Positions 14,059 to 42,726 of a stretch of DNA of 64,000 nt are shown in pieces (the first letter of the stretch is position 1; every line of letters begins with the position of its first letter). Origin of the DNA: Rapana venosa (lineage: Eukaryota > Mollusca > Gastropoda > Neogastropoda > Muricidae); assembly GCA_028751875.1 (NCBI GenBank), contig CM054155.1, forward strand, positions 57,821,760 through 57,885,759, in the 5' to 3' direction. A model generated the notes under the pieces. It ran no database searches, was not told the origin of the DNA, and saw only the letters and a program-made list of their open reading frames with translations. The translations under genes and the position numbers were made by a program.

Positions 14059-14714
14059 CAATGTGTCATTTCAAACCAAGCATCGACTGGCAGATCAAGT
14101 TTGAGTTTATTAAGTCCATAACTCTCTATGCACCTGAACAGAACTTTCCGTAAGCCATAAATCTGGACCAATAAACATAGCACTAGCCTGATCAATCAGC
14201 TAGTAGAAATGAAGTAAGAAAATATGCATTACCGAATATCGCACGTTATTGTTCATAGAAAAGTGCGCTCAGTGACTAAACCATCAAGCCGCATTGCTAC
14301 GATTCCTTCCATACTTTCTCTGGATGATCAGTACACATTGGTGTTTTGTTTCTGCTTCAAGAGAAGAAAGAGCTTCTTCTTGTTCATGGATGGGATTACT
14401 ATTACTGGAAAGACCTCGTGACGTTGAGCCGCTGCCGAGTTTGCTATTGCATTCGGAACAGTGGCGGTGACAATGACATTGGAAGGGACATGTTCCAGTA
14501 ATAAAGTCAACTGCTTCCTAGACCCCCACAGCTGACACAATTAGCATCCCTTCAATCTACACACAATGAACCCTTTTGCATTCTATACACAGATGTTGTA
14601 CTGCAAAGACAATCTATTACTAGACTTACTGAATGAATATCATAAAAATTACACACGACATTTTTTAAACAGTATAAAAGAAAATGACGACCGCTAAATA
14701 ACCTAAAGTTCCTA
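14059..14714 (+). other. Unassigned left end of the block, small open frame
   Basis: A 65-codon frame at 14,224-14,421 (HYRISHVIVHRKVRS, later SLDDQYTLVFCFCFKRR) and further broken frames to 14,714 look more protein-like than random. They precede the Polinton-type remnants, so they may be another decayed gene of that element or LINE 3' sequence. I cannot assign a family. Confidence 0.3.
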
Positions 14715-15240
14715 GTGCACCAAATCCTAAGCCTCTTAATGATAATGCTAATCACCTTTCTTGACAAACATAACACAGATGGCAGCATGACATTTGAGCA
14801 CAACAGCAAAGTAATAACAAATGCAGGCGTTAGGTACAGATCAGCATTTACTGTGTTTGAACTCTATTACTACAGGACAGCAACTCTGTCTACAGCCGCA
14901 GCAGGAACAGGCATTGCTCTCTTGGCTACTGGAATTGCTGCTCCTGCAGTCAATAGCATTTGGGCTCTGTTTCAATAACAGCAGACCTGTTCATTGTCAC
15001 ATCATCTTTCGAAGAAGTTGCGGTAAACTAGAAAACATGATGCTGTTGTGTGCTTACATTACCCAAGCTAAGCTCATTCAGGCGCATTATTAGCAAACTC
15101 TAACAGATTCCACAATAACAGAAGAGGAGTTCAACGCACTTCAGGAATGACTACGATGACTACAAGCGATCAAAAGTTTACCCTCAAGAACAAAGAACAC
15201 AAAGCTAAGCCTGTGGACATTGACTCAATTAAAAAGGAAT
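14715..15240 (+). pseudogene. Small Polinton-associated protein remnant (hydrophobic GIALLATGIAAP type)
   Basis: Three reading frames in succession carry parts of one protein. The first (14,715-14,978) has VITNAGVRYRSAFTVFE, then a hydrophobic Ala/Gly-rich segment GTGIALLATGIAAP of membrane-helix length. The second (from 14,975) gives ADLFIVTSSFEEVA. The third (to about 15,150) gives QAKLIQAHY, a stop, then TITEEEFNALQE, followed by DYKRSKVY in another frame. A glycine/alanine-rich helix followed by L..AKL...... and a (D)..ITEEEF helix is a layout I recall from uncharacterised proteins encoded by animal Polintons and related elements. At least two frameshifts and one in-frame stop break it. 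Its role in the element is not established; a membrane or virion role would be a guess. Confidence 0.45.
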
Positions 15241-16287
15241 ATAAAAAAAAGGGGTAGTCTGCTTGGCTTGACAATAAACTTCAGCTGATACTCTATAAGG
15301 AGCTATGAATATACTGTGGTAATTCACTGCTTCATAACGAAGCAAAACAAAAAAACAATGAATCTCGCTAGATGCTCGAGTCAATTACACTAATTTTTTT
15401 TTGACGGGGGGGACTGGGGGGATAGAGTTAGAGATTTTTAGTTTAGGCTCAGTAGGACAAAGTGGTTCAGTCAATAGAGCTAGGGGGGTTGGAGCATAAA
15501 CATCAGATTCGTATGCTACAAACACACACACAAGATGCAGAGAGGACGGGGGGGAACAGGATAAAGGAGGGTATAATGTTATGAGAATGACAATACGAGG
15601 GGTATTGGGGGTGCAGGGGGTGGGCTGGAAGGGATTCCATTGTATTGCAAGGAATTGTGGATTTGGTCTTAAGTGGGGTTTAGGGGAAGGGGGGGATTAG
15701 GGTAGAGAGATTGACTAGGGTTCATGGGTAGTAGATTCATATAATTGGACTAGGTTGTTACGATAAAGGTACGGATGTTTGATAATTTATATTGGTTTTT
15801 GAGATGGGGTATGTTGGGTGTATGGGGTCGGGTGTGATAGTGTTATAGTTTGAAAGACAAAGGTGTGTGCACCCAATTGTTGGAAGGAGCTCATTCCCCT
15901 ACCCAAGAGAAATGTAAACGAAAAACGCTGTGCTAAACCATATACAAAAAGAGATATATGCTTTACATGGGGTGTGGTTGATTGGGGCACTGTATCGAAT
16001 GGATGCAGAGAGATGGATTAATTTAATTAATGTGGTAAAAATAAAGGAAGATTTTTTTGTAAGGCAATGTTTGGTAGATGAGAGGAGATTGTGATGCAGG
16101 TTTGGTAGAGAATTAAGGGAGGGGGGCGCAGTTTTGGTGGAGTGGATAAAAGTCGGATGTTACAGAACCAAGGTAAGACCTGTGAGGATATCAAGTAATA
16201 TCATACAGTGTAGTTCCTTGATAAGAATCATGTAGACCTTTTGTTAATCACAATGACAATGCTACCATTATAACACTAATCAGAACA
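15241..16287. other. No gene seen; G/A- and G/T-rich sequence
   Basis: From about 15,390 to 16,180 the plus strand is strongly G-rich (ggggg runs, ttggtagag). This differs from the flanking protein-like segments. It carries no frame of interest and separates the two Polinton-type remnants. Confidence 0.45.
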
Positions 16288-18435
16288 ATGATTAGACTTA
16301 TTGCCCATAACAACAAAAAAGCATCAAAAGCAAGAGTCTGTAGACGATGCTTAGTTCGTTTAAACCACACTAAAACTGCTGACAAACACGGAAAACATTG
16401 TAAGAGTGAGGCTGAAGCAAATACATACTTGTCCAGCACACCAAGACCGGAAGCAAGTAGAGCGCGAGTGCAAGAATAAAAAAAGTTACAAAAAGCCCCT
16501 ATGTAGTGTACTAGAACTTCGAGTCTAGCATAGTAGTTCCATACCAAATGAACCCATAGAAGAAGAAATACCTAAATACAGTCCTGCATAGTATCACCAA
16601 TTTTGTTCCTTTGCTTATGTTGTTGATAGATCAGATGGTGGACCTCATAGCCAGTTTTTGTATAAGATAACAGACGTGGCTAAGCTTATTTTCTTGAACA
16701 CATGAAAGCAATCATAACCACTACTCTCAACATGCTAAACCTACCAGAATCATTATGACAGAAGAAAACCAGGACAGTAATGCTCTGCCACACATTGTTG
16801 GATTTGTGTAATACTCTTGCTGGTGACCCATTGACAGAGAGATCATTACCACATCAGGGTACGTTTCGTGGAGCAGCACATAGTAAGTGTAATCTACCAA
16901 CTAAAAGTAGATTCTCCTAAAACATGCGCGTGCGAGTCAGTCTTCTTCCACAATCTAAAGTCTACGCTCACACCTAATCATGCAAGTGGGCAGTAACTGA
17001 TGAATATAAGGTTACTGCATGCCAGTCATCAGAAAGTACCTGACTTTTACACTAAATAGCCTGTCCTTCTTTGATATTCTGCACAACATCTGATGGATCT
17101 CTAGAGTCCTTGTCTTCATCACTGAGATATCTTGCTCAAATTACAGAAAAATACTTTTCGACACAAAGCTCGTGCGAAAAGGAGTCCTATCCTACGAGTA
17201 CATGGACTCATGAAAGCTTTGATGAAGTGAAGAGCTCCACCAAAGAATAAAAAAAAAAAACATTCTTCAGCAGATTGAACGGTAAAAGATCAAGAATGAT
17301 ACTATCAGCATGCTCAGTGGTCATGGCAAAAGATATGCAGATTTGGACGATGCGATTACTCATGATCAGTATCTACTTGCAGATGCATGTTTGCTTGCTG
17401 ATGTCTTTGAAGAACTACAGATAGACCGGGAAATGAAACTGAATTATGGACTAGACCATCACAAACTATATTACAGCACCAGAATGTCATGGGATGCTTC
17501 TTGAATTTACAGTGTGTGCAGATTTGATAGTTGTCTGACCTGCCAATGCTCCAAATGATTGAGGAATGGTCTGCTGCTAGTGGAGTGAGCGAGCAGTAAT
17601 GCCTCCGCCATCCCACATATACAGGTATGCAAACAACTAATATTTTAGGAAAGGAACTATAGAGCAGTTGGGAGGGGGGGGGGGGGGGGGGGGGGGCAGG
17701 AGGAGGGGCTTCTGGACTACATCTTGTAGCGTGTGAACCATAACGAATCTGGGTATGGGAGGGGGGGGGGGGGGCGGAATAATGGTGTCCAGTCACTACA
17801 CTAAGAAACTCAGTTTTTTAAATGGTCCTTTGCTGTGATGAACTCCAAAAAGTGATGTCACAAATGGTGCCCTGAACAAAGCACCTTATAGGTTGGATAT
17901 TAGAAGTAGATTTAGAGTCTATCCCCATGAACTTACAGATCGCACAATGACTACCCATGGCTGCAGAAAGGCCTCAAAACATCTCCCAAATAGAACCACC
18001 AACAAGCTTGTACCTAAACTTAAATACAAGAGCAAGTATGTTTGTCACAACAGACTGCTACAGTTCTACCTAAGGCATAGGTTAATTCATACCATTGCTG
18101 TCCATCATAACATTGTGTTTGACCATGACAATTCATGAAACCATAAAACATCATGAAGAACACTGATCTGAGAACGAAGGCAACCGATGCATCATAAAAG
18201 GATTACTTCAAGCTCAGGAAACAACCGCTGCTTTGGTAAAACAATGGAGAACCCCACAAAAGAAAAGATGTCAGAACTATACACAAAAGAAAATGAAAGC
18301 CATAAAGCTAACATCAAAAGCAAGCTAACAAGACTACAGGCATTTCATGAACTGTCTGTAATGGCACCAGATGAAGGGAATTGCAGGTTAAACTAAGACA
18401 AAAACCGTATTTCCATTGGGTTATGGGTGGGCAGG
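16288..18435 (+). pseudogene. polB: Polinton-type protein-primed family B DNA polymerase, broken
   Basis: Fragments in all three plus frames fall in the order of a Polinton/Maverick DNA polymerase (DNA_pol_B_2 family). A zinc-finger-like C-x2-C-x12-H-x3-C is at 16,339-16,401. SFAYVVDRSDG-like residues lie near 16,612-16,650. FRGAAHSKCN at 16,864-16,893 and VFFHNLK at 16,940-16,960 follow. Next are LVRKGVLSYEYMDS at 17,169-17,210 and FFSRLNGK at 17,263-17,286. The exonuclease-side block QYLLADACLLADVFEE plus LSWDA-like MSWDAS is at 17,367-17,502. Downstream come IGWILEVDLE (17,888-17,917), NKLVPKLKYKSKYV (about 18,003-18,045) and CFGKTMENP (about 18,229-18,255). Family members replicate linear DNA from a protein primer. 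Here many frameshifts, stops and a poly-G insertion near 17,674-17,774 destroy it, and the palm motif with the catalytic YxDTD is not found. No functional polymerase is encoded. Confidence 0.85.
17674..17774 (+). repeat. Poly-G runs interrupting the polymerase remnant
   Basis: A run of 23 G at 17,674-17,696 and a second G run at about 17,760-17,773 lie between the two halves of the polymerase. They could form G-quadruplexes. The proline-rich 146-codon minus-strand frame here is their translation. Confidence 0.8.
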
Positions 18436-20140
18436 AGGGGGGCCGAAGTCGACTCTTCCGGGAGTTCGTGATCTGTGTAAACATGCAACAAGGAAGAGGG
18501 GAACATGCGCTGGCGTAACTAGGGTCAAGGGCGGTGTCTCTATCTCTCCACAAACTGAGGCGTAATTGAGCGAGTGTGCGGCGTGGTGAGAGAGGCGCAA
18601 TGAGAGTGGGTAGTGTAGTCTGGTAATATTAATGATAAATACACACGATAGGGGAACAACTAGAAAAAAGGCTAACATTAATCACGAATGTGTCGCGCAG
18701 TGTGTCTAGATGCTAGCGGGAGGAGTGTGGAAGAGATTTGGTTGGTTTTATAATCAATTTATATATGTTGTGAACGAGCAAAGAGTAAGTGGAAGGAGAG
18801 AGGAGAGTAGTAGTAAGTGATTGTGATTGAGAGTGATGATGGGGAAGGTGAACAATCACTATATATAGTGATAGAGAGTATGATAAATAGATTTTGGTAT
18901 TTCATAGGGATAGAGATAGCGAGAGTAGGGATGAGGTTTTGATACAGAGACACACACTTTTAGGAGAGGGTATATCTACTTCTAGTCTCGTGTAATTTAA
19001 TCAATAATTTTAATGAATATCATATATGGTGTTTAGGTTTGTTGAGGTGTGAGTGGGGTGTTTTGTGTAGAGTTTGAGAAGGGGAGTGAGTAGTGGGATA
19101 GGTGGTGGATATAGTGATTAATCACACACATTTAGTTGGTTGGTGTGGGGTGTTTGATTATGAGTGAGAAATTAGTTTGTATGTGAGTGAATATAGGATT
19201 TATGGCACTATTTTAAGATTAGTAAAAGTAGAGTATCTAGACTACTATGCTCTGATATAGTTTGAAGAGTGTATAATATATATATCATGTGTTTTGTGAG
19301 AGTGTGTGAGAGAGTGAGAGGGTGTGTGTATGTTTGAGTTTGTTTGGAATTGGGGTTGTTGTGAATTAAATTTAGGAGAGTATTTGTTGTTTACCATGTT
19401 TTGTGTGTGGTGATTATTGATAGGTGCGGGGGTGTATGTTTGGGTGTGTGTGTTTTTATGGGTGTGAAATGATTGGTGGTTGTGTTTTTTTTGTGTTGGT
19501 GTTAGGGTGGGTTCAGGTTAAATTTTGGGTTGAGTGTATAAATTTTATGAGAGGTGGTTGTTGTGGGGGGTGTGTTTGTGATGTCTACTAGTGTAGGGGA
19601 ATTATAGGTGTGTTGGGGAGTTGTATGGTGTAGTGTATGTGTGGGTTTTGGGTGTGGTTGTGTGGTTTGGATGTATATGTGTAATTATGTTGTAGATTAG
19701 GTGTTTTTGTTTTGTTTTTATTTTAGTGTTTATATTGTTTATTAGTTTAAAGTTAAAATTATTTGTTTAGTTGGTAAGAAGTTGAAGATTTATTAATTAG
19801 ATAGTGGAGTTAGAGATAGGTGTAAGTTTATAAATAGTATGTTTAGTAGTTAAGAGGGAGAGTGGGATGTTGGTTTTTTGATTGGGTATGATGATATGGG
19901 TGGTATTAAAAATGTTTAAATTCTTTTTGTGTGAAAATGTAGTTTATAAAATATTATTATAATTATTCTTAAGAATATATATATAATTTTTATTTACCAC
20001 TTAATTAAATAAACCATTTTTTATACTATTAGAATTTGGCATCCATTTCTTATAAATACATATAAAAATTCTGTTTACCAACCCTTCTTGCTAAAATAAA
20101 ACATTTGTCTCCCACCACATTAAAAGCAATCTCGCGCCTG
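18436..20140. other. No gene seen; G/T-rich then AT-rich DNA
   Basis: The catalytic C-terminal part of the polymerase should follow 18,435 but cannot be read. From about 18,760 to 19,920 the plus strand is rich in gtgtg, gagag and ttagg with many stops, and then it turns AT-rich. Nothing recognisable. Confidence 0.45.
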
Positions 20141-20763
20141 TCTTCTGTTTCAGTGGGTTATATTAATCACAAGCTGTGGCTTTAGTAATAGAGATATTTG
20201 TTTGCCTCACAATGTAGTACTCTTTTATTGCCCCGTCAACATCAGAAAATGTTTTTTGCAGCATGTCCTGTTCACGAATTTTCATTAATAAAGTCCTAAC
20301 TGAGCAATTCTTTGGTCTTCGTATTCTGCCTGTGCTCTGTTCCGTTGTTCTATTGCTTTATCATGTCCTCTTCCTTTCTTCGTACTGTTGAAGTTTAGAG
20401 AAAACAAGTATTTGCTGCCTGTAAAAGTCAAGTGCGTTAACTACAGCCCCACCAGACCATCATCACTAAAGAACCCATTTCTATTATGTACTAATAATTA
20501 CTGGAATGATATCCCGCTTACCAAGATCATTGGTAGCAATGGATTCTGTTACAACACAACTAGCTGTCGCTGTCTTCAAAGTCTAGTTTTCCTAAATCCC
20601 AGGCCCATTTTTAGAAACACTTTCTAGCAAAGTATATCCTACACTAAGACTACAATACCGGCAGCTGGTAACCAGATGACTCAGTCTTTTGTGTACTCAT
20701 ATTTTCTACAATACGTATAAATTATTTATTTATATCTATTAAAAAATATTGAATGGATCGTTG
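20141..20763. other. Unassigned, weakly protein-like on both strands
   Basis: A 79-codon plus-strand frame (20,388-20,627; NPFLLCTNNYWNDIPLTK) overlaps minus-strand pieces such as QDMLQKTFSDVDGAIKEYY (about 20,195-20,255) and a hydrophobic WLPAAGIVVLV. Since the next gene remnant is on the minus strand, the minus reading is slightly favoured as another decayed element gene. No family is recognised. Confidence 0.3.
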
Positions 20764-21185
20764 TCAGGCTGTTTTGCTTTGCAATGGTTGTGGCTGTGGA
20801 TGTGGTTTTTTTGGCTTTTTGTTCCTTGCTGCGGTTTCTTGTCTTGCTGTTGCTTGCTGCTCATACTCTATAGCTGTATAACCAATTCCCATAGCTGTTA
20901 TCACCATATATTAAGTAAGACTGAATGTTGTTTTGGTGTGCTGTGTCTTTTTCTCGTGTTTCTTAGCATCTGTTTTTCTAATGTTCTCCAGATAAGATCT
21001 TGTGCTTTGCTTGGTTGCTAAGTTTTTCTGGTCGATTCATTCTGCTAATCTCTTGGCAGCTAATTCAACTCTCCCAGGTTCTTTGTTACAGATGTCACAC
21101 TTGTGAAAGGGAGAGGGTTGCTTCCTTGGTTCTTGACATTCTCCGATGTTTCCTGTTGGTTCGTGGCTGTGTCTGATTCCTCCAT
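20764..21185 (-). pseudogene. Small membrane protein remnant of the Polinton-type element
   Basis: Read on the minus strand, an acidic start (MEESDTATNQQETSENV from 21,185) is followed, after a frame change, by EPGRVELAAKRLAE and a stop, then NRPEKLSNQAKHK. The end is an open 47-codon frame (20,764-20,907) with a short hydrophobic VITAMGIGYTAI followed by a Lys/Pro/Gln-rich basic tail. A (D/E)P.RV..(G/A)KRLAE.NR helix, a single membrane segment and a charged tail is a layout I associate with short proteins of animal Polintons. The frames are broken at least twice. It lies opposite in direction to the polymerase remnant, as genes in Polintons often do. Confidence 0.4.
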
Positions 21186-21720
21186 CTTTTCACTTATGTG
21201 TTAAATTTTAATATGATTTAAAATGTTAAACATATAGCAGCTACTGGTGCAAACAGAGAACCAAACGGTAATAAATATCACAGGCCATTGTCTCCAGTGG
21301 GTTTTCTAGACAAAATAGGATCTTGGAGATGTCATATGCTAAGTCCAGCTTCTGAGTCACATTAAAGACCTACCTACAGAGAAAAAACTTAAAGCAGGCA
21401 GAAATAAGGTAAAATAATAAAAAACTAGAAAAAAAGAAGAAAAAAAAAAAAAAAAACAGAAAAATAATACAAACAAAGTGCTAAAAGTAAGAAAAAAACA
21501 CTAAAGATCTTGCCAAAAAAAAAAGAAATTTGAAAGAAAGAGGGCCAAGGAAAAAAAATAAAAAAAGAGAAAAGAGTATGAAAAAGGCGGACATTAACCT
21601 AAATCAAGATCAAAACAACAAAGAATCTGGGATAATGCGATATACGAAACTAAACGAAAAAATGAAGGAACCATAAAACATAATAAATAAAGGAACAGCC
21701 TCACCACTGACAATAAAGGA
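21186..21720. other. No gene assigned; A-rich DNA
   Basis: 21,230-21,360 has short minus-strand pieces (LAYDISKILFCLENPLET) that may be more decayed coding sequence. 21,390-21,600 is A-rich with poly-A runs. Confidence 0.35.
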
Positions 21721-22160
21721 GAAGACGCACCCCCCTGTGCACCTAACCAATCCCTTCCTCCGCCACCTACCCTCCCTTTCCCCTCCAACCTACTCCAACC
21801 ACATACCCTCTCCCTCTACCTCCTAACCAACCTCCACCAATCCCCACCTCCCCCCCGCCTCACCGACACCCCGCGTTCCTCCCCACCACCCCAACTCGCC
21901 TTACCACCCCCACCCCATAACCCCCCACTATACCCCCCCGCTAATCTGCCAACCCCACCCCAGACCCTTCTCCCGACATACCGCCACCAAAATCCTCCTC
22001 CCGACCCTCCACCCCCCCACATGCCCCCACAAACCCCGCCCCCCAAAACCACACCACTCCCCCCTCCCCCCTCCCCCCCCCCCCTAAAACCATCCACCCC
22101 GCCTCCCACTCTATCCCTCCCCCCACAACCCCTCCCCCCACCTCCCCCCCTCCCCCCCAA
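21721..22160. repeat. C-rich low-complexity tract
   Basis: cccccc, ccaccc and ctccccc dominate, with very few G. The glycine-rich 114-codon minus-strand frame is compositional. Confidence 0.8.
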
Positions 22161-22504
22161 TTAAATATAATAATATATAATTAAAGTTTAGGAAGCCTAG
22201 CCCAATACCCCTCCCCACATCCCACTAGCAAAACACCCTAATGCACCACGCCGAGCATACCTCCCTCTAATCCAACATACACCTGTCTTGTGGTGATTAA
22301 CAGCAGAAGCACCTGAATCAAAGTTATATATCAGTTCTAATAATGCATTTGTTTAACCACAAGCAGCAGAGAGAACAACTACTCCTCTACTCCAGTAGAT
22401 ACATCTCATGCAGTTTTAAATTTCTAACATAGACAAGAAACCAGTCAAAGTCCACAACAAAAGGTTCGTCCGCAATTCATGTGTCAATCTTTAACATATA
22501 TTTT
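22161..22504. other. No gene assigned
   Basis: AT-rich at first, then mixed sequence. On the minus strand short pieces are readable around 22,290-22,480, but no family is recognised. Confidence 0.35.
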
Positions 22505-22740
22505 AGTGTAAATTATTGTTGTTGTCTTGACTTTCTTTGATAGAGTTTTGTTTATAAGTTGTTGATGGGGAACTTGTTTTGTTTCTTGACAAGTTCTTAA
22601 TATAGTTCTTGTTTTAGTTCTTGATAAAGTTCTTTGATAATTCTTGGTAAGTTCTTGGTAGTATCTTTGTTATTAGTTGTTAATAAGTACTTCTAGGCAA
22701 GTTCTTGCTAAGATTTGATGATAAGTTTGTTAATAAAAGA
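22505..22740. repeat. Degenerate gttcttgataa tandem repeat
   Basis: agttcttgataa, agttcttggta and similar units recur about ten times with irregular spacing. Confidence 0.65.
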
Positions 22741-23546
22741 TCTCTCTCCTCTCCTCCCTCTCTCGGCACCACAGCAGGAACTTCCACAGTCTAGCTAGAC
22801 CATGTAAATGAAATATTAAACAGCACATCGTCACAGCCAATACGCAAAAGCCACGCTTCAACCGAGAGAGAGGAAAGACCGGTGTAAGGGTGAGCTTCAG
22901 TTACCAGGTCGTCATGCTTGAGTGATTCTTTTGTTGGGGGGGATCCTCGACAGGACCCTGTTTCTATTTAGAACCACATCATTTCGTTATCGGCACAGCC
23001 ACTGAGCATTTATGCATAATCGTCATTGAGAAGCTCGCAGATTCCTTGTGTTTTTCTAGGTAGGGTGAGAGTTGTTCGGACCTAAACAAACTATGCAAGG
23101 TACAGTAAGATAAATTTCAAACACTTTTTTTTAATGAAAAGCTTGCACTCTTCACTGCACAACTTCACACTGGAAATGACAAGACAAGCTAGGCTCGGTT
23201 GCTAACAACATAGAGTTCTGAGCGGAAATGTCGTCACTGTTCTAATCAGCTGATTCTCTCTATTCTTGAGATTGGGGAAAGTTAAAGTAACATGTCTAGA
23301 TATCTTACAGGGGGGGGGGGGAGGACCCCCTAGCTTTACCTATGAAATCACCCGTTTATTCAGAATTTGTCAAAGCTATTGACGCTAGTGTGTCATTCAA
23401 GCAGCGGGCGAGGTGGTGTGCTCCTACCCCTTTCATTCTCCCTTCTTCAACTTCTTTTTTCTGTGACCAGTATAGCATAAATACCCCATAATTTTTATAG
23501 TTTTACCCATCAAAAATAAATTAGTATTACTTTCAGATTAGTAGAT
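22741..23546. other. No gene recognised
   Basis: Non-repetitive, mixed-composition sequence apart from a poly-G run at about 23,310-23,321. It is a candidate place for the terminal region of the Polinton-type element, but no inverted partner could be found by eye. Confidence 0.35.
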
Positions 23547-23714
23547 AGATAGGGAAAAAGGGGCATTCAAATTGATGCCTAGTTTTAACTAAAACGAGAT
23601 AAAAAAACTCACGCACGTTTTGAGTCGATGAGGTGCAGCCGAATCGGCTCAAAGTTGCAGAGGTTTGGTAAAATTATCGGCAAAGGAGCTTGAATGCCCC
23701 TTTTCCCTATCTCT
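23547..23714. repeat. Imperfect palindrome at the end of the inverted LINE half
   Basis: The left arm gatagggaaaaaggggcatt pairs with ttgaatgccccttttccc of the right arm. An inner hairpin pairs gttttgagtcgat with atcggctcaaag. The palindrome spans about 168 bp. The equivalent at 39,926-40,097 has a different right arm. Confidence 0.65.
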
Positions 23715-23715
23715 G

Positions 23716-25490
23716 GTGGGTATACATAGCTTCTGGCCATTCTTTGGTGTCGTGAATCTTCTGACAAAGTTCTGTGAATCGCCTTGCTGTTTCATTCTCT
23801 CATTTTTTATGAGTTCATCTGGGATGTTATCGATTCCAGGGGACTTCCCCTTCTTCAATTATTTAATAAATGTGTCTACTTCACACCTTAGTATTGGTGG
23901 GTCTTTAGCTTGGTGTTCAGGGGGTTGTCAGAGGGGGGGGAGCGTAGTGGGGGGGTGTGGGGTGGGGGAGGGGGGGGGCGGGGGGGGGGTGGATGTGCTA
24001 GTGCGTAAATATACAATCCCTCACAGTATTCCGTCCAGCGTTAGGAGATTGGCATTGCTTTCCGTTAAAAGATTTCCCTTCTTTGTCTTCAATGACAGAG
24101 GCTTTAGGCTGAGTGGTTTTAGTTAGTCGAATTTCAGAGTGTTGTATTTTTTCTGTTTTCCCTTGCTATTCCATCCAACTCGATGCAGTGGCATTGTTCT
24201 TACTATCCATGCTTCTTTGCTTCTCTCAACTTTTTCCACACTTCTCTCTGTTGGCTATCCCTGTATTTGTTGTTGTTATTCTTGACTGTGAAAACTTATG
24301 TTTCTTAAGCTCACTTCTTTTCACAAATCAATAACCTCATTTGTCACCCAGGGTTGTTTTATCTATTGTTCTGCATCATCCTAATGTTTTTCTTCTGGCA
24401 GCTGGTCAATTGTACACTTCTATTGATGTTGTTGGCTTAGTGAGTCCACATCATTGTTTATGGCTGTGAGTGCGGCGAACTTTCCTCCAAATGTTGGCTG
24501 GAAGATCTCAAACAACCCCTACTGATGGGGTCTTTGAGTTTTTCCAGATCAAGACTAATGCGTGTTAATTTTGCCTGTTGTTATGCATTCAGTTTCAGCT
24601 TGAATGTTGGTAAGTACAAGGACGTGGACACTGCCAGTTTCAGCTCCTGGAATGTTCTTGTGTTTGCCTTGTTTATGCTGATTTGAATCTTTGGGGTGAC
24701 AGAATGTAGTCAACTTTGATGTGAATCAACCAGTTGGTGAGTGCCAGGTTTGATGTCAGATGGCTTGTGAGGGTGGAGTGTGTTAGCCCAAGTTAGTTTG
24801 TGCTTCTGTGCGAATTCCAAGCAGCTGCTGTCCCTCATTTCTTTGTTTCTCCTGTCCAAAGCGTCTGTGGTCCTACCCAGGTGTCATAGGCATCAGTCCC
24901 CACCTTAGCTTCCAGTTGCCTTCCACAATAAGAATATCTTTTTTGGGCGTTTGGAGATGACATTTTTTTTAAGTTGTTCATAGAATTCTTCTATCTGGGC
25001 ATCATCGTAGTCAGATGTTGGAGCATACACTTGAATGATGGTGAGATCTGGGTTTTGCAGAAACTCTGATTGAGAATGAGTCTGCTGGATACAGGTGCAG
25101 CTGACGATGCTTGACACAACTCTTTCCTGACAATGAAGCCAACTCCGAGTTGATGTAGTTTCTCTTCTCCCACTGTACCATATCTTGTGGCTGTCTTGCG
25201 TGGACTGTTTCTCCGAAGCCAATCCAGCTGACTTCCGCAAGCCCAGGTGTCCCAATTATATCTTTTAGTTTCATTCTGTGAGTTTCCTGTACTCAACCTG
25301 TTTGGTTTGGAGTCCTTGCATTCCCATGTTACGATTGGTTACTCCTTTATTGGAAGCTTTAGAGTTGGTTCTGCTCAAGTACGCACTTCTCACGTCCCAC
25401 CCTGGAGGCTTGCAGTGGGTAGCGCGGTCGTTGTTGATCCGGGCCTCGACCGATCGGCATGTTTTTCTTTTTGTTTTTCTCATCATAGTC
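23716..25490 (-). pseudogene. LINE 5' half, inverted: endonuclease and start of RT
   Basis: Minus-strand frames, read from right to left, give an N-terminal region (25,271-25,486, ending QTKQVEYRKLTE). They continue with an endonuclease (25,011-25,274: LAEVSWIGFGETVHARQ; 24,905-25,255: LTIIQVYAPTSDYDDAQIEE and FYEQLKKN). The last part is the entry to the reverse transcriptase (MKKGKSPGIDNIPDELIKN, near 23,800-23,858). The VYAPT...FYEQL pattern is that of apurinic-type endonucleases of LINEs annotated in invertebrates as craniofacial-development-protein-2-like. Frames change several times and a poly-G field at about 23,930-23,990 interrupts it. The 3' half lies just to the right in the opposite orientation. 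Confidence 0.75.
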
Positions 25491-25639
25491 CCATATGCAA
25501 GTGGCTTGAAGAACTAGTCGCGCCCCATCTCCTCTCCAAGAACTTCCTACTGTTGATAAGAATTCACCAGCCCCTCACAACGTTTCCGCCGCCATAGAAG
25601 CGGTTACCGGTGTGGGTGGGTTAAGGACCCGACCACAGA

Positions 25640-27055: not shown

Positions 27056-27069
27056 GTCTTTGGGACATG

Positions 27070-27765: not shown

Positions 27766-27965
27766 ACAGACACACACACACAGATGCTTCACACCCACAC
27801 ACATACATTCACACACAAAGATACACACATACCCACACACACACACCCACACACACACACACACACACAAACACTCAAACACTACACACACACACACACA
27901 CAGCACACACACACACACACAACACACCCCACACACACACCACACACACACACACAGACCACACA
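27766..27965. repeat. (CA)n microsatellite
   Basis: Long cacaca run with acaca/ccaca variants. The histidine/threonine frames are artefacts. Confidence 0.9.
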
Positions 27966-28560: not shown

Positions 28561-28609
28561 CGCTCCTCAGCTACAGCTCCAAAGGTTCACCAGCAGCCAT
28601 CCTCTGCAC

Positions 28610-30500: not shown

Positions 30501-31093
30501 CTCTCTATGCACCTGAACAGAACTTTCCGTAAGCCATAAATCTGGACCAATAAACATAGCACTAGCCTGATCAATCAGCTAGTAGAAATGAAGTAAGAAA
30601 ATATGCATTACCGAATATCGCACGTTATTGTTCATAGAAAAGTGCGCTCAGTGACTAAACCATCAAGCCGCATTGCTACGATTCCTTCCATACTTTCTCT
30701 GGATGATCAGTACACATTGGTGTTTTGTTTCTGCTTCAAGAGAAGAAAGAGCTTCTTCTTGTTCATGGATGGGATTACTATTACTGGAAAGACCTCGTGA
30801 CGTTGAGCCGCTGCCGAGTTTGCTATTGCATTCGGAACAGTGGCGGTGACAATGACATTGGAAGGGACATGTTCCAGTAATAAAGTCAACTGCTTCCTAG
30901 ACCCCCACAGCTGACACAATTAGCATCCCTTCAATCTACACACAATGAACCCTTTTGCATTCTATACACAGATGTTGTACTGCAAAGACAATCTATTACT
31001 AGACTTACTGAATGAATATCATAAAAATTACACACGACATTTTTTAAACAGTATAAAAGAAAATGACGACCGCTAAATAACCTAAAGTTCCTA
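30438..31093 (+). other. Copy 2 of the unassigned left end
   Basis: Same as 14,059-14,714, including the 65-codon frame, here at 30,603-30,800. Confidence 0.3.
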
Positions 31094-31619
31094 GTGCACC
31101 AAATCCTAAGCCTCTTAATGATAATGCTAATCACCTTTCTTGACAAACATAACACAGATGGCAGCATGACATTTGAGCACAACAGCAAAGTAATAACAAA
31201 TGCAGGCGTTAGGTACAGATCAGCATTTACTGTGTTTGAACTCTATTACTACAGGACAGCAACTCTGTCTACAGCCGCAGCAGGAACAGGCATTGCTCTC
31301 TTGGCTACTGGAATTGCTGCTCCTGCAGTCAATAGCATTTGGGCTCTGTTTCAATAACAGCAGACCTGTTCATTGTCACATCATCTTTCGAAGAAGTTGC
31401 GGTAAACTAGAAAACATGATGCTGTTGTGTGCTTACATTACCCAAGCTAAGCTCATTCAGGCGCATTATTAGCAAACTCTAACAGATTCCACAATAACAG
31501 AAGAGGAGTTCAACGCACTTCAGGAATGACTACGATGACTACAAGCGATCAAAAGTTTACCCTCAAGAACAAAGAACACAAAGCTAAGCCTGTGGACATT
31601 GACTCAATTAAAAAGGAAT
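31094..31619 (+). pseudogene. Copy 2: small Polinton-associated protein remnant
   Basis: Carries the same frameshifts and the same in-frame stop as 14,715-15,240, so the gene was already dead before the block was copied, if the copying is real. Confidence 0.45.
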
Positions 31620-32666
31620 ATAAAAAAAAGGGGTAGTCTGCTTGGCTTGACAATAAACTTCAGCTGATACTCTATAAGGAGCTATGAATATACTGTGGTA
31701 ATTCACTGCTTCATAACGAAGCAAAACAAAAAAACAATGAATCTCGCTAGATGCTCGAGTCAATTACACTAATTTTTTTTTGACGGGGGGGACTGGGGGG
31801 ATAGAGTTAGAGATTTTTAGTTTAGGCTCAGTAGGACAAAGTGGTTCAGTCAATAGAGCTAGGGGGGTTGGAGCATAAACATCAGATTCGTATGCTACAA
31901 ACACACACACAAGATGCAGAGAGGACGGGGGGGAACAGGATAAAGGAGGGTATAATGTTATGAGAATGACAATACGAGGGGTATTGGGGGTGCAGGGGGT
32001 GGGCTGGAAGGGATTCCATTGTATTGCAAGGAATTGTGGATTTGGTCTTAAGTGGGGTTTAGGGGAAGGGGGGGATTAGGGTAGAGAGATTGACTAGGGT
32101 TCATGGGTAGTAGATTCATATAATTGGACTAGGTTGTTACGATAAAGGTACGGATGTTTGATAATTTATATTGGTTTTTGAGATGGGGTATGTTGGGTGT
32201 ATGGGGTCGGGTGTGATAGTGTTATAGTTTGAAAGACAAAGGTGTGTGCACCCAATTGTTGGAAGGAGCTCATTCCCCTACCCAAGAGAAATGTAAACGA
32301 AAAACGCTGTGCTAAACCATATACAAAAAGAGATATATGCTTTACATGGGGTGTGGTTGATTGGGGCACTGTATCGAATGGATGCAGAGAGATGGATTAA
32401 TTTAATTAATGTGGTAAAAATAAAGGAAGATTTTTTTGTAAGGCAATGTTTGGTAGATGAGAGGAGATTGTGATGCAGGTTTGGTAGAGAATTAAGGGAG
32501 GGGGGCGCAGTTTTGGTGGAGTGGATAAAAGTCGGATGTTACAGAACCAAGGTAAGACCTGTGAGGATATCAAGTAATATCATACAGTGTAGTTCCTTGA
32601 TAAGAATCATGTAGACCTTTTGTTAATCACAATGACAATGCTACCATTATAACACTAATCAGAACA
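31620..32666. other. Copy 2: G-rich non-coding sequence
   Basis: Equivalent of 15,241-16,287. No gene. Confidence 0.45.
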
Positions 32667-34814
32667 ATGATTAGACTTATTGCCCATAACAACAAAAAAG
32701 CATCAAAAGCAAGAGTCTGTAGACGATGCTTAGTTCGTTTAAACCACACTAAAACTGCTGACAAACACGGAAAACATTGTAAGAGTGAGGCTGAAGCAAA
32801 TACATACTTGTCCAGCACACCAAGACCGGAAGCAAGTAGAGCGCGAGTGCAAGAATAAAAAAAGTTACAAAAAGCCCCTATGTAGTGTACTAGAACTTCG
32901 AGTCTAGCATAGTAGTTCCATACCAAATGAACCCATAGAAGAAGAAATACCTAAATACAGTCCTGCATAGTATCACCAATTTTGTTCCTTTGCTTATGTT
33001 GTTGATAGATCAGATGGTGGACCTCATAGCCAGTTTTTGTATAAGATAACAGACGTGGCTAAGCTTATTTTCTTGAACACATGAAAGCAATCATAACCAC
33101 TACTCTCAACATGCTAAACCTACCAGAATCATTATGACAGAAGAAAACCAGGACAGTAATGCTCTGCCACACATTGTTGGATTTGTGTAATACTCTTGCT
33201 GGTGACCCATTGACAGAGAGATCATTACCACATCAGGGTACGTTTCGTGGAGCAGCACATAGTAAGTGTAATCTACCAACTAAAAGTAGATTCTCCTAAA
33301 ACATGCGCGTGCGAGTCAGTCTTCTTCCACAATCTAAAGTCTACGCTCACACCTAATCATGCAAGTGGGCAGTAACTGATGAATATAAGGTTACTGCATG
33401 CCAGTCATCAGAAAGTACCTGACTTTTACACTAAATAGCCTGTCCTTCTTTGATATTCTGCACAACATCTGATGGATCTCTAGAGTCCTTGTCTTCATCA
33501 CTGAGATATCTTGCTCAAATTACAGAAAAATACTTTTCGACACAAAGCTCGTGCGAAAAGGAGTCCTATCCTACGAGTACATGGACTCATGAAAGCTTTG
33601 ATGAAGTGAAGAGCTCCACCAAAGAATAAAAAAAAAAAACATTCTTCAGCAGATTGAACGGTAAAAGATCAAGAATGATACTATCAGCATGCTCAGTGGT
33701 CATGGCAAAAGATATGCAGATTTGGACGATGCGATTACTCATGATCAGTATCTACTTGCAGATGCATGTTTGCTTGCTGATGTCTTTGAAGAACTACAGA
33801 TAGACCGGGAAATGAAACTGAATTATGGACTAGACCATCACAAACTATATTACAGCACCAGAATGTCATGGGATGCTTCTTGAATTTACAGTGTGTGCAG
33901 ATTTGATAGTTGTCTGACCTGCCAATGCTCCAAATGATTGAGGAATGGTCTGCTGCTAGTGGAGTGAGCGAGCAGTAATGCCTCCGCCATCCCACATATA
34001 CAGGTATGCAAACAACTAATATTTTAGGAAAGGAACTATAGAGCAGTTGGGAGGGGGGGGGGGGGGGGGGGGGGGCAGGAGGAGGGGCTTCTGGACTACA
34101 TCTTGTAGCGTGTGAACCATAACGAATCTGGGTATGGGAGGGGGGGGGGGGGGCGGAATAATGGTGTCCAGTCACTACACTAAGAAACTCAGTTTTTTAA
34201 ATGGTCCTTTGCTGTGATGAACTCCAAAAAGTGATGTCACAAATGGTGCCCTGAACAAAGCACCTTATAGGTTGGATATTAGAAGTAGATTTAGAGTCTA
34301 TCCCCATGAACTTACAGATCGCACAATGACTACCCATGGCTGCAGAAAGGCCTCAAAACATCTCCCAAATAGAACCACCAACAAGCTTGTACCTAAACTT
34401 AAATACAAGAGCAAGTATGTTTGTCACAACAGACTGCTACAGTTCTACCTAAGGCATAGGTTAATTCATACCATTGCTGTCCATCATAACATTGTGTTTG
34501 ACCATGACAATTCATGAAACCATAAAACATCATGAAGAACACTGATCTGAGAACGAAGGCAACCGATGCATCATAAAAGGATTACTTCAAGCTCAGGAAA
34601 CAACCGCTGCTTTGGTAAAACAATGGAGAACCCCACAAAAGAAAAGATGTCAGAACTATACACAAAAGAAAATGAAAGCCATAAAGCTAACATCAAAAGC
34701 AAGCTAACAAGACTACAGGCATTTCATGAACTGTCTGTAATGGCACCAGATGAAGGGAATTGCAGGTTAAACTAAGACAAAAACCGTATTTCCATTGGGT
34801 TATGGGTGGGCAGG
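32667..34814 (+). pseudogene. polB: Copy 2: Polinton-type DNA polymerase B, broken
   Basis: Same motifs and breaks as 16,288-18,435: FRGAAHSKCN at 33,243-33,272, VFFHNLK at 33,319-33,339, MSWDAS near 33,864-33,881 and IGWILEVDLE at 34,267-34,296. The 23-base G run also recurs at about 34,053-34,075. Confidence 0.85.
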
Positions 34815-37142
34815 AGGGGGGCCGAAGTCGACTCTTCCGGGAGTTCGTGATCTGTGTAAACATGCAACAAGGAAGAGGGGAACATGCGCTGGCGTAACTA
34901 GGGTCAAGGGCGGTGTCTCTATCTCTCCACAAACTGAGGCGTAATTGAGCGAGTGTGCGGCGTGGTGAGAGAGGCGCAATGAGAGTGGGTAGTGTAGTCT
35001 GGTAATATTAATGATAAATACACACGATAGGGGAACAACTAGAAAAAAGGCTAACATTAATCACGAATGTGTCGCGCAGTGTGTCTAGATGCTAGCGGGA
35101 GGAGTGTGGAAGAGATTTGGTTGGTTTTATAATCAATTTATATATGTTGTGAACGAGCAAAGAGTAAGTGGAAGGAGAGAGGAGAGTAGTAGTAAGTGAT
35201 TGTGATTGAGAGTGATGATGGGGAAGGTGAACAATCACTATATATAGTGATAGAGAGTATGATAAATAGATTTTGGTATTTCATAGGGATAGAGATAGCG
35301 AGAGTAGGGATGAGGTTTTGATACAGAGACACACACTTTTAGGAGAGGGTATATCTACTTCTAGTCTCGTGTAATTTAATCAATAATTTTAATGAATATC
35401 ATATATGGTGTTTAGGTTTGTTGAGGTGTGAGTGGGGTGTTTTGTGTAGAGTTTGAGAAGGGGAGTGAGTAGTGGGATAGGTGGTGGATATAGTGATTAA
35501 TCACACACATTTAGTTGGTTGGTGTGGGGTGTTTGATTATGAGTGAGAAATTAGTTTGTATGTGAGTGAATATAGGATTTATGGCACTATTTTAAGATTA
35601 GTAAAAGTAGAGTATCTAGACTACTATGCTCTGATATAGTTTGAAGAGTGTATAATATATATATCATGTGTTTTGTGAGAGTGTGTGAGAGAGTGAGAGG
35701 GTGTGTGTATGTTTGAGTTTGTTTGGAATTGGGGTTGTTGTGAATTAAATTTAGGAGAGTATTTGTTGTTTACCATGTTTTGTGTGTGGTGATTATTGAT
35801 AGGTGCGGGGGTGTATGTTTGGGTGTGTGTGTTTTTATGGGTGTGAAATGATTGGTGGTTGTGTTTTTTTTGTGTTGGTGTTAGGGTGGGTTCAGGTTAA
35901 ATTTTGGGTTGAGTGTATAAATTTTATGAGAGGTGGTTGTTGTGGGGGGTGTGTTTGTGATGTCTACTAGTGTAGGGGAATTATAGGTGTGTTGGGGAGT
36001 TGTATGGTGTAGTGTATGTGTGGGTTTTGGGTGTGGTTGTGTGGTTTGGATGTATATGTGTAATTATGTTGTAGATTAGGTGTTTTTGTTTTGTTTTTAT
36101 TTTAGTGTTTATATTGTTTATTAGTTTAAAGTTAAAATTATTTGTTTAGTTGGTAAGAAGTTGAAGATTTATTAATTAGATAGTGGAGTTAGAGATAGGT
36201 GTAAGTTTATAAATAGTATGTTTAGTAGTTAAGAGGGAGAGTGGGATGTTGGTTTTTTGATTGGGTATGATGATATGGGTGGTATTAAAAATGTTTAAAT
36301 TCTTTTTGTGTGAAAATGTAGTTTATAAAATATTATTATAATTATTCTTAAGAATATATATATAATTTTTATTTACCACTTAATTAAATAAACCATTTTT
36401 TATACTATTAGAATTTGGCATCCATTTCTTATAAATACATATAAAAATTCTGTTTACCAACCCTTCTTGCTAAAATAAAACATTTGTCTCCCACCACATT
36501 AAAAGCAATCTCGCGCCTGTCTTCTGTTTCAGTGGGTTATATTAATCACAAGCTGTGGCTTTAGTAATAGAGATATTTGTTTGCCTCACAATGTAGTACT
36601 CTTTTATTGCCCCGTCAACATCAGAAAATGTTTTTTGCAGCATGTCCTGTTCACGAATTTTCATTAATAAAGTCCTAACTGAGCAATTCTTTGGTCTTCG
36701 TATTCTGCCTGTGCTCTGTTCCGTTGTTCTATTGCTTTATCATGTCCTCTTCCTTTCTTCGTACTGTTGAAGTTTAGAGAAAACAAGTATTTGCTGCCTG
36801 TAAAAGTCAAGTGCGTTAACTACAGCCCCACCAGACCATCATCACTAAAGAACCCATTTCTATTATGTACTAATAATTACTGGAATGATATCCCGCTTAC
36901 CAAGATCATTGGTAGCAATGGATTCTGTTACAACACAACTAGCTGTCGCTGTCTTCAAAGTCTAGTTTTCCTAAATCCCAGGCCCATTTTTAGAAACACT
37001 TTCTAGCAAAGTATATCCTACACTAAGACTACAATACCGGCAGCTGGTAACCAGATGACTCAGTCTTTTGTGTACTCATATTTTCTACAATACGTATAAA
37101 TTATTTATTTATATCTATTAAAAAATATTGAATGGATCGTTG
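34815..37142. other. Copy 2: G/T-rich, AT-rich and unassigned sequence
   Basis: Equivalent of 18,436-20,763, including the 79-codon frame here at 36,767-37,006. Confidence 0.4.
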
Positions 37143-37564
37143 TCAGGCTGTTTTGCTTTGCAATGGTTGTGGCTGTGGATGTGGTTTTTTTGGCTTTTTG
37201 TTCCTTGCTGCGGTTTCTTGTCTTGCTGTTGCTTGCTGCTCATACTCTATAGCTGTATAACCAATTCCCATAGCTGTTATCACCATATATTAAGTAAGAC
37301 TGAATGTTGTTTTGGTGTGCTGTGTCTTTTTCTCGTGTTTCTTAGCATCTGTTTTTCTAATGTTCTCCAGATAAGATCTTGTGCTTTGCTTGGTTGCTAA
37401 GTTTTTCTGGTCGATTCATTCTGCTAATCTCTTGGCAGCTAATTCAACTCTCCCAGGTTCTTTGTTACAGATGTCACACTTGTGAAAGGGAGAGGGTTGC
37501 TTCCTTGGTTCTTGACATTCTCCGATGTTTCCTGTTGGTTCGTGGCTGTGTCTGATTCCTCCAT
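37143..37564 (-). pseudogene. Copy 2: small membrane protein remnant
   Basis: Equivalent of 20,764-21,185. The 47-codon terminal frame is at 37,143-37,286. Confidence 0.4.
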
Positions 37565-39925
37565 CTTTTCACTTATGTGTTAAATTTTAATATGATTTAA
37601 AATGTTAAACATATAGCAGCTACTGGTGCAAACAGAGAACCAAACGGTAATAAATATCACAGGCCATTGTCTCCAGTGGGTTTTCTAGACAAAATAGGAT
37701 CTTGGAGATGTCATATGCTAAGTCCAGCTTCTGAGTCACATTAAAGACCTACCTACAGAGAAAAAACTTAAAGCAGGCAGAAATAAGGTAAAATAATAAA
37801 AAACTAGAAAAAAAGAAGAAAAAAAAAAAAAAAAACAGAAAAATAATACAAACAAAGTGCTAAAAGTAAGAAAAAAACACTAAAGATCTTGCCAAAAAAA
37901 AAAGAAATTTGAAAGAAAGAGGGCCAAGGAAAAAAAATAAAAAAAGAGAAAAGAGTATGAAAAAGGCGGACATTAACCTAAATCAAGATCAAAACAACAA
38001 AGAATCTGGGATAATGCGATATACGAAACTAAACGAAAAAATGAAGGAACCATAAAACATAATAAATAAAGGAACAGCCTCACCACTGACAATAAAGGAG
38101 AAGACGCACCCCCCTGTGCACCTAACCAATCCCTTCCTCCGCCACCTACCCTCCCTTTCCCCTCCAACCTACTCCAACCACATACCCTCTCCCTCTACCT
38201 CCTAACCAACCTCCACCAATCCCCACCTCCCCCCCGCCTCACCGACACCCCGCGTTCCTCCCCACCACCCCAACTCGCCTTACCACCCCCACCCCATAAC
38301 CCCCCACTATACCCCCCCGCTAATCTGCCAACCCCACCCCAGACCCTTCTCCCGACATACCGCCACCAAAATCCTCCTCCCGACCCTCCACCCCCCCACA
38401 TGCCCCCACAAACCCCGCCCCCCAAAACCACACCACTCCCCCCTCCCCCCTCCCCCCCCCCCCTAAAACCATCCACCCCGCCTCCCACTCTATCCCTCCC
38501 CCCACAACCCCTCCCCCCACCTCCCCCCCTCCCCCCCAATTAAATATAATAATATATAATTAAAGTTTAGGAAGCCTAGCCCAATACCCCTCCCCACATC
38601 CCACTAGCAAAACACCCTAATGCACCACGCCGAGCATACCTCCCTCTAATCCAACATACACCTGTCTTGTGGTGATTAACAGCAGAAGCACCTGAATCAA
38701 AGTTATATATCAGTTCTAATAATGCATTTGTTTAACCACAAGCAGCAGAGAGAACAACTACTCCTCTACTCCAGTAGATACATCTCATGCAGTTTTAAAT
38801 TTCTAACATAGACAAGAAACCAGTCAAAGTCCACAACAAAAGGTTCGTCCGCAATTCATGTGTCAATCTTTAACATATATTTTAGTGTAAATTATTGTTG
38901 TTGTCTTGACTTTCTTTGATAGAGTTTTGTTTATAAGTTGTTGATGGGGAACTTGTTTTGTTTCTTGACAAGTTCTTAATATAGTTCTTGTTTTAGTTCT
39001 TGATAAAGTTCTTTGATAATTCTTGGTAAGTTCTTGGTAGTATCTTTGTTATTAGTTGTTAATAAGTACTTCTAGGCAAGTTCTTGCTAAGATTTGATGA
39101 TAAGTTTGTTAATAAAAGATCTCTCTCCTCTCCTCCCTCTCTCGGCACCACAGCAGGAACTTCCACAGTCTAGCTAGACCATGTAAATGAAATATTAAAC
39201 AGCACATCGTCACAGCCAATACGCAAAAGCCACGCTTCAACCGAGAGAGAGGAAAGACCGGTGTAAGGGTGAGCTTCAGTTACCAGGTCGTCATGCTTGA
39301 GTGATTCTTTTGTTGGGGGGGATCCTCGACAGGACCCTGTTTCTATTTAGAACCACATCATTTCGTTATCGGCACAGCCACTGAGCATTTATGCATAATC
39401 GTCATTGAGAAGCTCGCAGATTCCTTGTGTTTTTCTAGGTAGGGTGAGAGTTGTTCGGACCTAAACAAACTATGCAAGGTACAGTAAGATAAATTTCAAA
39501 CACTTTTTTTTAATGAAAAGCTTGCACTCTTCACTGCACAACTTCACACTGGAAATGACAAGACAAGCTAGGCTCGGTTGCTAACAACATAGAGTTCTGA
39601 GCGGAAATGTCGTCACTGTTCTAATCAGCTGATTCTCTCTATTCTTGAGATTGGGGAAAGTTAAAGTAACATGTCTAGATATCTTACAGGGGGGGGGGGG
39701 AGGACCCCCTAGCTTTACCTATGAAATCACCCGTTTATTCAGAATTTGTCAAAGCTATTGACGCTAGTGTGTCATTCAAGCAGCGGGCGAGGTGGTGTGC
39801 TCCTACCCCTTTCATTCTCCCTTCTTCAACTTCTTTTTTCTGTGACCAGTATAGCATAAATACCCCATAATTTTTATAGTTTTACCCATCAAAAATAAAT
39901 TAGTATTACTTTCAGATTAGTAGAT
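37565..39925. other. Copy 2: A-rich, C-rich and gttcttgataa repeats
   Basis: A-rich to about 38,090, C-rich at 38,100-38,539, the gttcttgataa repeat at 38,884-39,119, then unrecognised sequence. No gene. Confidence 0.5.
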
Positions 39926-40097
39926 AGATAGGGAAAAAGGGGCATTCAAATTGATGCCTAGTTTTAACTAAAACGAGATAAAAAAACTCACGCACGTTTT
40001 GAGTCGATGAGTGCAGCCGAATCGCTCAAATTGCAGAGGTTGAGTTAAAATTATCGGCAAAGGAGCTTGAGTGATGCCTCCTTTTTCCTATCTCTGG
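39926..40097. repeat. Copy 2: palindrome with altered right arm
   Basis: The left arm equals copy 1, but the right arm reads gagtgatgcctcctttttcc where copy 1 has gaatgccccttttccc, and the inner hairpin has lost several bases. Confidence 0.65.
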
Positions 40098-41874
40098 GTG
40101 GTATACATAGCTTCTGGCCATTCTTTGGTGTCGTGAATCTTCTGACAAAGTTCTGTGAATCGCCTTGCTGTTTCATTCTCTCATTTTTTATGAGTTCATC
40201 TGGGATGTTATCGATTCCAGGGGACTTCCCCTTCTTCAATTATTTAATAAATGTGTCCTACATCACACCTTAGTATTGGTGGGTCTCTTTAGCTTGGTGT
40301 TCAGGGGGTTGTCAGAGGGGGGGGAGCGTAGTGGGGGGGTGTGGGGTGGGGGAGGGGGGGGGCGGGGGGGGGGTGGATGTGCTAGTGCGTAAATATACAA
40401 TCCCTCACAGTATTCCGTCCAGCGTTAGGAGATTGGCATTGCTTTCCGTTAAAAGATTTCCCTTCTTTGTCTTCAATGACAGAGGCTTTAGGCTGAGTGG
40501 TTTTAGTTAGTCGAATTTCAGAGTGTTGTATTTTTTCTGTTTTCCCTTGCTATTCCATCCAACTCGATGCAGTGGCATTGTTCTTACTATCCATGCTTCT
40601 TTGCTTCTCTCAACTTTTTCCACACTTCTCTCTGTTGGCTATCCCTGTATTTGTTGTTGTTATTCTTGACTGTGAAAACTTATGTTTCTTAAGCTCACTT
40701 CTTTTCACAAATCAATAACCTCATTTGTCACCCAGGGTTGTTTTATCTATTGTTCTGCATCATCCTAATGTTTTTCTTCTGGCAGCTGGTCAATTGTACA
40801 CTTCTATTGATGTTGTTGGCTTAGTGAGTCCACATCATTGTTTATGGCTGTGAGTGCGGCGAACTTTCCTCCAAATGTTGGCTGGAAGATCTCAAACAAC
40901 CCCTACTGATGGGGTCTTTGAGTTTTTCCAGATCAAGACTAATGCGTGTTAATTTTGCCTGTTGTTATGCATTCAGTTTCAGCTTGAATGTTGGTAAGTA
41001 CAAGGACGTGGACACTGCCAGTTTCAGCTCCTGGAATGTTCTTGTGTTTGCCTTGTTTATGCTGATTTGAATCTTTGGGGTGACAGAATGTAGTCAACTT
41101 TGATGTGAATCAACCAGTTGGTGAGTGCCAGGTTTGATGTCAGATGGCTTGTGAGGGTGGAGTGTGTTAGCCCAAGTTAGTTTGTGCTTCTGTGCGAATT
41201 CCAAGCAGCTGCTGTCCCTCATTTCTTTGTTTCTCCTGTCCAAAGCGTCTGTGGTCCTACCCAGGTGTCATAGGCATCAGTCCCCACCTTAGCTTCCAGT
41301 TGCCTTCCACAATAAGAATATCTTTTTTGGGCGTTTGGAGATGACATTTTTTTTAAGTTGTTCATAGAATTCTTCTATCTGGGCATCATCGTAGTCAGAT
41401 GTTGGAGCATACACTTGAATGATGGTGAGATCTGGGTTTTGCAGAAACTCTGATTGAGAATGAGTCTGCTGGATACAGGTGCAGCTGACGATGCTTGACA
41501 CAACTCTTTCCTGACAATGAAGCCAACTCCGAGTTGATGTAGTTTCTCTTCTCCCACTGTACCATATCTTGTGGCTGTCTTGCGTGGACTGTTTCTCCGA
41601 AGCCAATCCAGCTGACTTCCGCAAGCCCAGGTGTCCCAATTATATCTTTTAGTTTCATTCTGTGAGTTTCCTGTACTCAACCTGTTTGGTTTGGAGTCCT
41701 TGCATTCCCATGTTACGATTGGTTACTCCTTTATTGGAAGCTTTAGAGTTGGTTCTGCTCAAGTACGCACTTCTCACGTCCCACCCTGGAGGCTTGCAGT
41801 GGGTAGCGCGGTCGTTGTTGATCCGGGCCTCGACCGATCGGCATGTTTTTCTTTTTGTTTTTCTCATCATAGTC
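40098..41874 (-). pseudogene. Copy 2: LINE 5' half (endonuclease, RT start), inverted
   Basis: Equivalent of 23,716-25,490. Endonuclease frames are at 41,289-41,639 and 41,395-41,658, and the MKKGKSPGIDNIPDELIKN piece is near 40,180-40,239. Confidence 0.75.
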
Positions 41875-42023
41875 CCATATGCAAGTGGCTTGAAGAACTA
41901 GTCGCGCCCCATCTCCTCTCCAAGAACTTCCTACTGTTGATAAGAATTCACCAGCCCCTCACAACGTTTCCGCCGCCATAGAAGCGGTTACCGGTGTGGG
42001 TGGGTTAAGGACCCGACCACAGA

Positions 42024-42726
42024 AGTGAGAGTGAGTGCCAGTTGAGGACCAGTGCAATCACCGTCCCTCCCGAGGGATGCAACTCGCCAGGTTTTACTAA
42101 AGGACACAAACCACTCCTTAAAAAGAATAATGGACACAGTCTCTTGTAAATATCCCCTCACCAAAGAAAAGGAACCACAAGCCAATGGCCAGAACTACAG
42201 AACCATCAGCTCATAGCATCCTAGCAAGATCAAGCTGCGGGTAGTCCTCAACAGACTGAAAAACGAAGCGGAAAAACTCCTGGCAGAAAACAACCGGCTT
42301 AGACCAATATGCAGCACAATGGAACAAATTATCAATCTGAGAATTCTTATAAAGAAACATCTCCACCACCAAAAAGACTTGTATCACAATTCAAGAACTT
42401 TATAAAGGCTTTGACAGAGTATGGGCATGACGGGCCTCTGCAAGTACTCAAGGCACTTCAACATTGACAACTGCTCATTGAAGTCATCAAGGCACTGTAC
42501 GAGAACAGCAAGAAGTGCAGTTTTCATGAACAATCACATGGCGCGTTCTTCAAGACCACGTTGGGGTCCGCAAGGCTGCCTTCTCTCACCTGTACTTCTT
42601 CAACCTCTTCCTCGAAAACATCATGACAGGACCGCGCAAAAAACCACCACACTTCCATCTCCATTGGTGAAGGACCCCTTGCAACCTCAGATTTCAGATG
42701 ACATGACCTCAATCAACAAGAACTGC
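42024..42726 (+). pseudogene. Copy 2: LINE 3' half, truncated at the block edge
   Basis: Equivalent of 25,640-26,342. It stops shortly after the palm region and lacks the C-terminal 700 bp present in copy 1. Confidence 0.8.

Follow-up and report, generated by a model that had tools for sequence, protein, structure and literature searches.

The sequence analysed here, a window of 64,000 nucleotides from contig CM054155.1 of the Rapana venosa assembly GCA_028751875.1 (positions 57,821,760 to 57,885,759), contains a block of about 12.3 kb twice, and the question that it raises is whether the genome also contains the block twice. The initial annotation had left three options open: a very recent duplication, the same reads assembled twice, or the two haplotypes of one locus. 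The evidence assembled below favours the same data having been used twice and disfavours two haplotypes. Judged from the sequence of the window, the duplication appears to be a false one made during assembly, a reading to which we give a probability of roughly three in four.

When the window was compared with itself (BLASTN), one long match was found outside the GA arrays, between copy 1 (14,059-26,342, forward strand, 12,284 bp) and copy 2 (30,438-42,726, forward strand, 12,289 bp), the latter being the copy that we judge to be false. The copies are in direct orientation, 16.4 kb apart, and align over 12,292 columns with 99.862% identity, 6 mismatches, and 8 gap openings. The near-identical direct duplication of 12.3 kb that had been described from this DNA is thereby borne out, and a chance origin of the match is excluded. 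Counted inward, the copies are identical without exception over 9,574 bp from the left end and over 2,441 bp from the right end, a total of 12,015 bp outside a single differing tract. Their ends are sharp; the match stops abruptly, with 0 extra matching bases beyond the block on either side. The agreement had also been said to hold in runs that are prone to variation, and it does: homopolymers of 7 or more (34 of 34, the longest of 23) and short di- and trinucleotide arrays (12 of 12) are the same in both copies.

Several repeats lie to the left of the block. A CA array (13,987-14,060) precedes copy 1, and shortly before it is a tandem array (13,129-13,623) with a 73-bp unit in approximately 6 copies, which can also be read as a 154-bp unit. 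Three short inverted-repeat pairs in 13,500-15,000 are unremarkable. A degenerate array with a 16-bp unit (approximately 31 copies) is present at 10-508. No RNA families were found at the gathering threshold and no tRNAs were found by ARAGORN in the window.

The copies are connected by a spacer of 4,095 bp (26,343-30,437) that contains no N gap. Read from the left, it begins with the 3' part of a LINE (the first 0.7 kb or so, ending at about 27,071), followed by ordinary sequence. Next come arrays of CA and TTG (27,760-27,968, 28,115-28,545, and 28,621-30,333; TRF), and the last 104 bp before copy 2 (30,334-30,437) are again ordinary sequence. The initial annotation called this spacer largely CA and TTG microsatellite and a typical place for assembly loops. 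Microsatellite is indeed present, but the three TRF arrays make up approximately 57% of the spacer (2,353 of 4,095 bp), the remainder being LINE and ordinary sequence. A simple CA-mediated loop was rejected as a full account of the duplication, since the 104 bp of ordinary sequence lie between the CA array and copy 2. The right end of copy 2 joins a raw-looking tail, not microsatellite.

The LINE that the block interrupts bears on which of the two right junctions is original. Its 5' part is inverted (23,731-24,550, minus strand, residues 15-268 of the relative P0002) and occurs again in copy 2, where it extends to residue 296. Its 3' part (25,747-27,071, plus strand) matches P0002 from residue 270 and P0001 to residue 354 of 356, spanning the reverse transcriptase towards the C-terminus. 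Twin priming is a mechanism that gives LINE insertions with an inverted 5' part, and the order of the parts is as would be expected of such a 5'-inverted, twin-primed insertion. The inversion point lies near residue 270-290 of P0002. The domain PF00078 is listed for all four LINE relatives (P0001-P0004), and the two that were re-tested both match RVT_1; the broken LINE frames themselves gave no reverse-transcriptase match in Pfam.

The right end of copy 1 falls inside the reverse-transcriptase region of this element. All four relatives align across 26,342 in copy 1 and end at 26,936 to 27,071, P0001 running furthest into the spacer among the matches listed (to 27,071). Copy 2 holds the LINE 3' part only to the block end; its tblastn matches end at or before 42,695 for three of the four relatives, and P0003 reaches 42,747. 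Frameshift-tolerant alignments passed the seam, to 42,796 (P0001) and 42,816 (P0002). When the first 100 bp of the tail were scored as a LINE continuation, however, they reached 20, in a null of 300 random noisy 100-mers of which at least 15 scored 24 or more (maximum 31), whereas the continuation in copy 1 scored 49 in the same test. Whole relatives scored 33-44 against the first 600 bp of the tail, and the highest score among 44 other noisy stretches was 61. The idea that the LINE continues in noisy form into the tail was therefore rejected, the scores being within the range of chance. Because the LINE continues only past copy 1, the right junction of copy 1 is original and the right edge of copy 2 derived. 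Copy 1 followed by the spacer is thus the original order to the right of the block; at the left junction, neither copy could be identified as the original.

The base calls change in character at this same derived edge. Copy 2 is followed by a homopolymer-inflated, raw-looking tail (42,727-46,000) and then by a scaffold gap of 500 N (46,001-46,500), so that 3,274 bp separate the end of copy 2 from the gap. The fraction of runs of 3 or more rises from copy 2 to the tail for A (0.10 to 0.18), C (0.06 to 0.16), G (0.06 to 0.16), and T (0.10 to 0.24), the inflation after 42,726 affecting all four bases. In all four scan ranges that include the edge, the best changepoint falls at 42,727 for runs of at least 3 and at 42,759 for runs of at least 4. 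The corresponding 2-unit intervals over 30,438-46,000 are 42,706-42,780 and 42,724-42,780; the narrowest scan (41,500-44,000, runs of at least 4) gives an interval of 42,741-42,769, leaving the edge 14 bp outside it. The log-likelihood rises by 76.5, and none of 200 block shuffles gave more than 20.0. Scans on the left side of the window also give changepoints, with smaller gains, of 40.5 and 27.8 at the CA and TTG arrays and of 20.6 and 9.9 elsewhere.

The four block edges were also compared with one another, using 1.5 kb on either side of each. Run values go from 0.065 to 0.256 across the right edge of copy 2, and the other three junctions have no comparable jump (0.088/0.062, 0.065/0.071, and 0.033/0.062, where the 0.033 before the left edge of copy 2 stems from the CA array). 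The shift in base-call character falls on the end of copy 2 or no more than about 30 bases from it. The tail would rest on few reads, perhaps on a single one.

A short repeat near the left end of the window recurs in the tail (1,445-1,528 and 45,082-45,155, 81% over 84 columns, on opposite strands), and the tail is for this reason probably DNA of the same genome. The idea that the tail repeats the spacer or the left flank in noisy form was rejected after a homopolymer-compressed comparison, in which the tail had no match to the spacer. Weak matches (61-78%) occurred in 8 of 10 segment pairs in that comparison, including three between the tail and the left flank; with at most 8 matches listed per pair and a lenient scoring, they are treated as probable background.

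Inflated runs occur in the next contig as well, away from any duplication. Runs of 3 or more are frequent in 49,500-64,000, including 53,400-60,400 between GA arrays, and may reflect composition inside the GA arrays and low base quality between them. Sequence of this kind is thus not special to the duplication. An open frame of approximately 205 codons (46,501-47,115, minus strand) is cut by the scaffold gap. The protein search gave a single relative, P0005 (eukprot source), with 57% identity across 58% of the query, and Pfam gave only weak coiled-coil-type matches, below the cut-offs; presumably the frame resembles the first ORF of a LINE.

The only tract in which the copies differ (23,632-23,901 in copy 1 and 40,010-40,285 in copy 2) contains all 17 differing BLAST columns, consisting of 6 substitutions and 11 gap columns in 8 gaps, and a MAFFT alignment places its 23 differing columns in the same tract. 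The initial annotation was right that such a stretch exists, although by the BLAST columns it measures about 270 bp, not 280. Over this length the 14 events amount to 5.2%, and 8 of them are gaps. The tract lies at the inner boundary of the inverted LINE part, and neither version of it is clean, the LINE alignment reaching residue 296 in copy 2 with 20 frameshifts and residue 268 in copy 1 with 17, counts that refer to these different spans. It may show what independent noisy versions of one sequence look like.

The LINE also offers a view of how accurate the block is. Aligned with its closest relative (74% identity), it has 26 frameshifts in 1,029 bp and 3 stops, with 10 of the frameshifts inside the block and 16 in the spacer; three back-translated intact relatives have 0 frameshifts. 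This count is higher than in any of 52 simulated sequences, in which the maxima were 24 (40 neutral-decay runs) and 21 (12 indel-noise runs), at one frameshift penalty (10), with four runs per setting and substitution:indel ratios taken to be 8 and 4. Under stricter penalties the LINE count drops to 20 and 12, the simulations referring to the one penalty only. These results are moderate evidence that part of the LINE indels are read errors, and the decay of what had been described as a decayed, non-selected region may in part have the same source. The frameshifts are the one gauge of the error rate of the block, because the block has no homopolymer inflation and is similar to the left flank. 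Past the gap, an ORF (within 46,501-47,200, minus strand) has 1 frameshift in 362 bp, which indicates that quality varies from place to place.

If the LINE indels are partly read errors, independently built copies would not be expected to agree over 12 kb. With an independent error of 0.1% per copy, 24 differences are expected in 12,015 bp and the probability of finding none is 4e-11; with an error of 0.01% per copy, 2.4 differences are expected and the probability of none is 0.09. It is very probable that a single consensus was the source of both copies.

We propose that a single stretch of long-read consensus, of a length (12.3 kb) that plausibly fits one corrected long read, was placed twice, with the same reads underlying both copies. 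The first placement would be the proper context, that of copy 1, from which the LINE runs on rightward. The second would be the start of a branch into the thinly covered, raw-looking tail of 3.3 kb that ends at the scaffold gap, and this tail and its junction with copy 2 would rest on very few reads. The tract of approximately 270 bp would reflect different correction or polishing of the two placements. Several features argue against an artefact. The sequence diverges sharply at both block ends, as it would around a genuine repeat with two copies; the copies are joined without N, and copy 2 is preceded by 104 bp of ordinary sequence; and short-read polishing could render two real copies identical. 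The lack of homopolymer inflation in the block, the narrowest changepoint interval that leaves out the edge, the inflated runs in the next contig, and the repeat that the tail has in common with the left of the window also count against it.

The strongest alternative is a real and very recent segmental duplication of 12.3 kb whose copies the assembler left unresolved, with one consensus used for both; we consider this unlikely. In its favour are the sharp ends, the different flanks on all four sides, and a spacer free of N. Against it, the derived right junction falls on the base-call change, 3.3 kb from the scaffold gap. Zero differences in 12,015 bp permit a divergence below about 0.025% (95% bound), and a real duplication collapsed in the assembly graph could also yield one shared consensus; the differences, however, are rich in indels and confined to one tract, whereas new mutations would be scattered, and no mediating repeat is common to the flanks. 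It is improbable, to a similar degree, that a real duplication diverged by less than approximately 0.025% was broken inside a LINE and carried a 5'-inverted piece of it with all slippage-prone runs unchanged.

Far less probable is that two haplotypes of one locus were placed in succession. This heterotype false duplication is described as a common artefact in heterozygous genomes (PMC8081667, PMC9516828), but it should bring differences between the copies, and there is no variant in 12,015 bp. It should also bring shared flanks, and no left-left or right-right flank match was found with the low-complexity filter on; in the lenient comparison the spacer had no match to the tail and four weak matches (62-78%) to the left flank, as weak matches were seen in 8 of 10 pairs. 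Two insertions of one large mobile element would account for near-identical copies with different flanks but are hardly credible, since the block ends inside the LINE coding region and not at an element end, and inspection of the flanks by eye revealed neither target-site duplications nor inverted ends at the two copies.

Copy 2 should accordingly be kept out of biological interpretation until it is supported by reads, and claims of copy number or gene gain from this part of the assembly would be unsafe. The locus also shows that assembled sequence alone can point to a false duplication, when the course of an interrupted element, which tells the original junction, is considered together with a run-length changepoint, which tells where the base-call character shifts.

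Homotype and heterotype false duplications have been described for vertebrate genomes (Rhie et al. 2021, PMC8081667; a 2022 survey of false duplications in Genome Biol., PMC9516828), and the homotype criteria include the lack of haplotype-specific variants, proximity to a contig boundary, a gap between the copies in the assembly or in read depth, and very low read depth over the copies. The duplication in the window resembles a recent segmental duplication in its direct copies 16.4 kb apart and its sharp ends, and differs from one in having a quality seam at its derived junction, next to a scaffold gap. With the heterotype it has in common that it is a direct duplication on one scaffold, but its copies are without haplotype variants and its flanks without ordinary similarity. 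It works more like a homotype false duplication, as judged from the assembly sequence rather than from depth or k-mers. Unlike the homotype, it has a spacer of 4.1 kb without N that connects the copies. Like the homotype, it is a block placed twice without haplotype variants (12,015 identical bp in the assembly sequence), copy 2 ends near a contig boundary (3,274 bp before the 500-N gap), the block length is plausible for one long read, and the quality of the consensus changes beside the copy.
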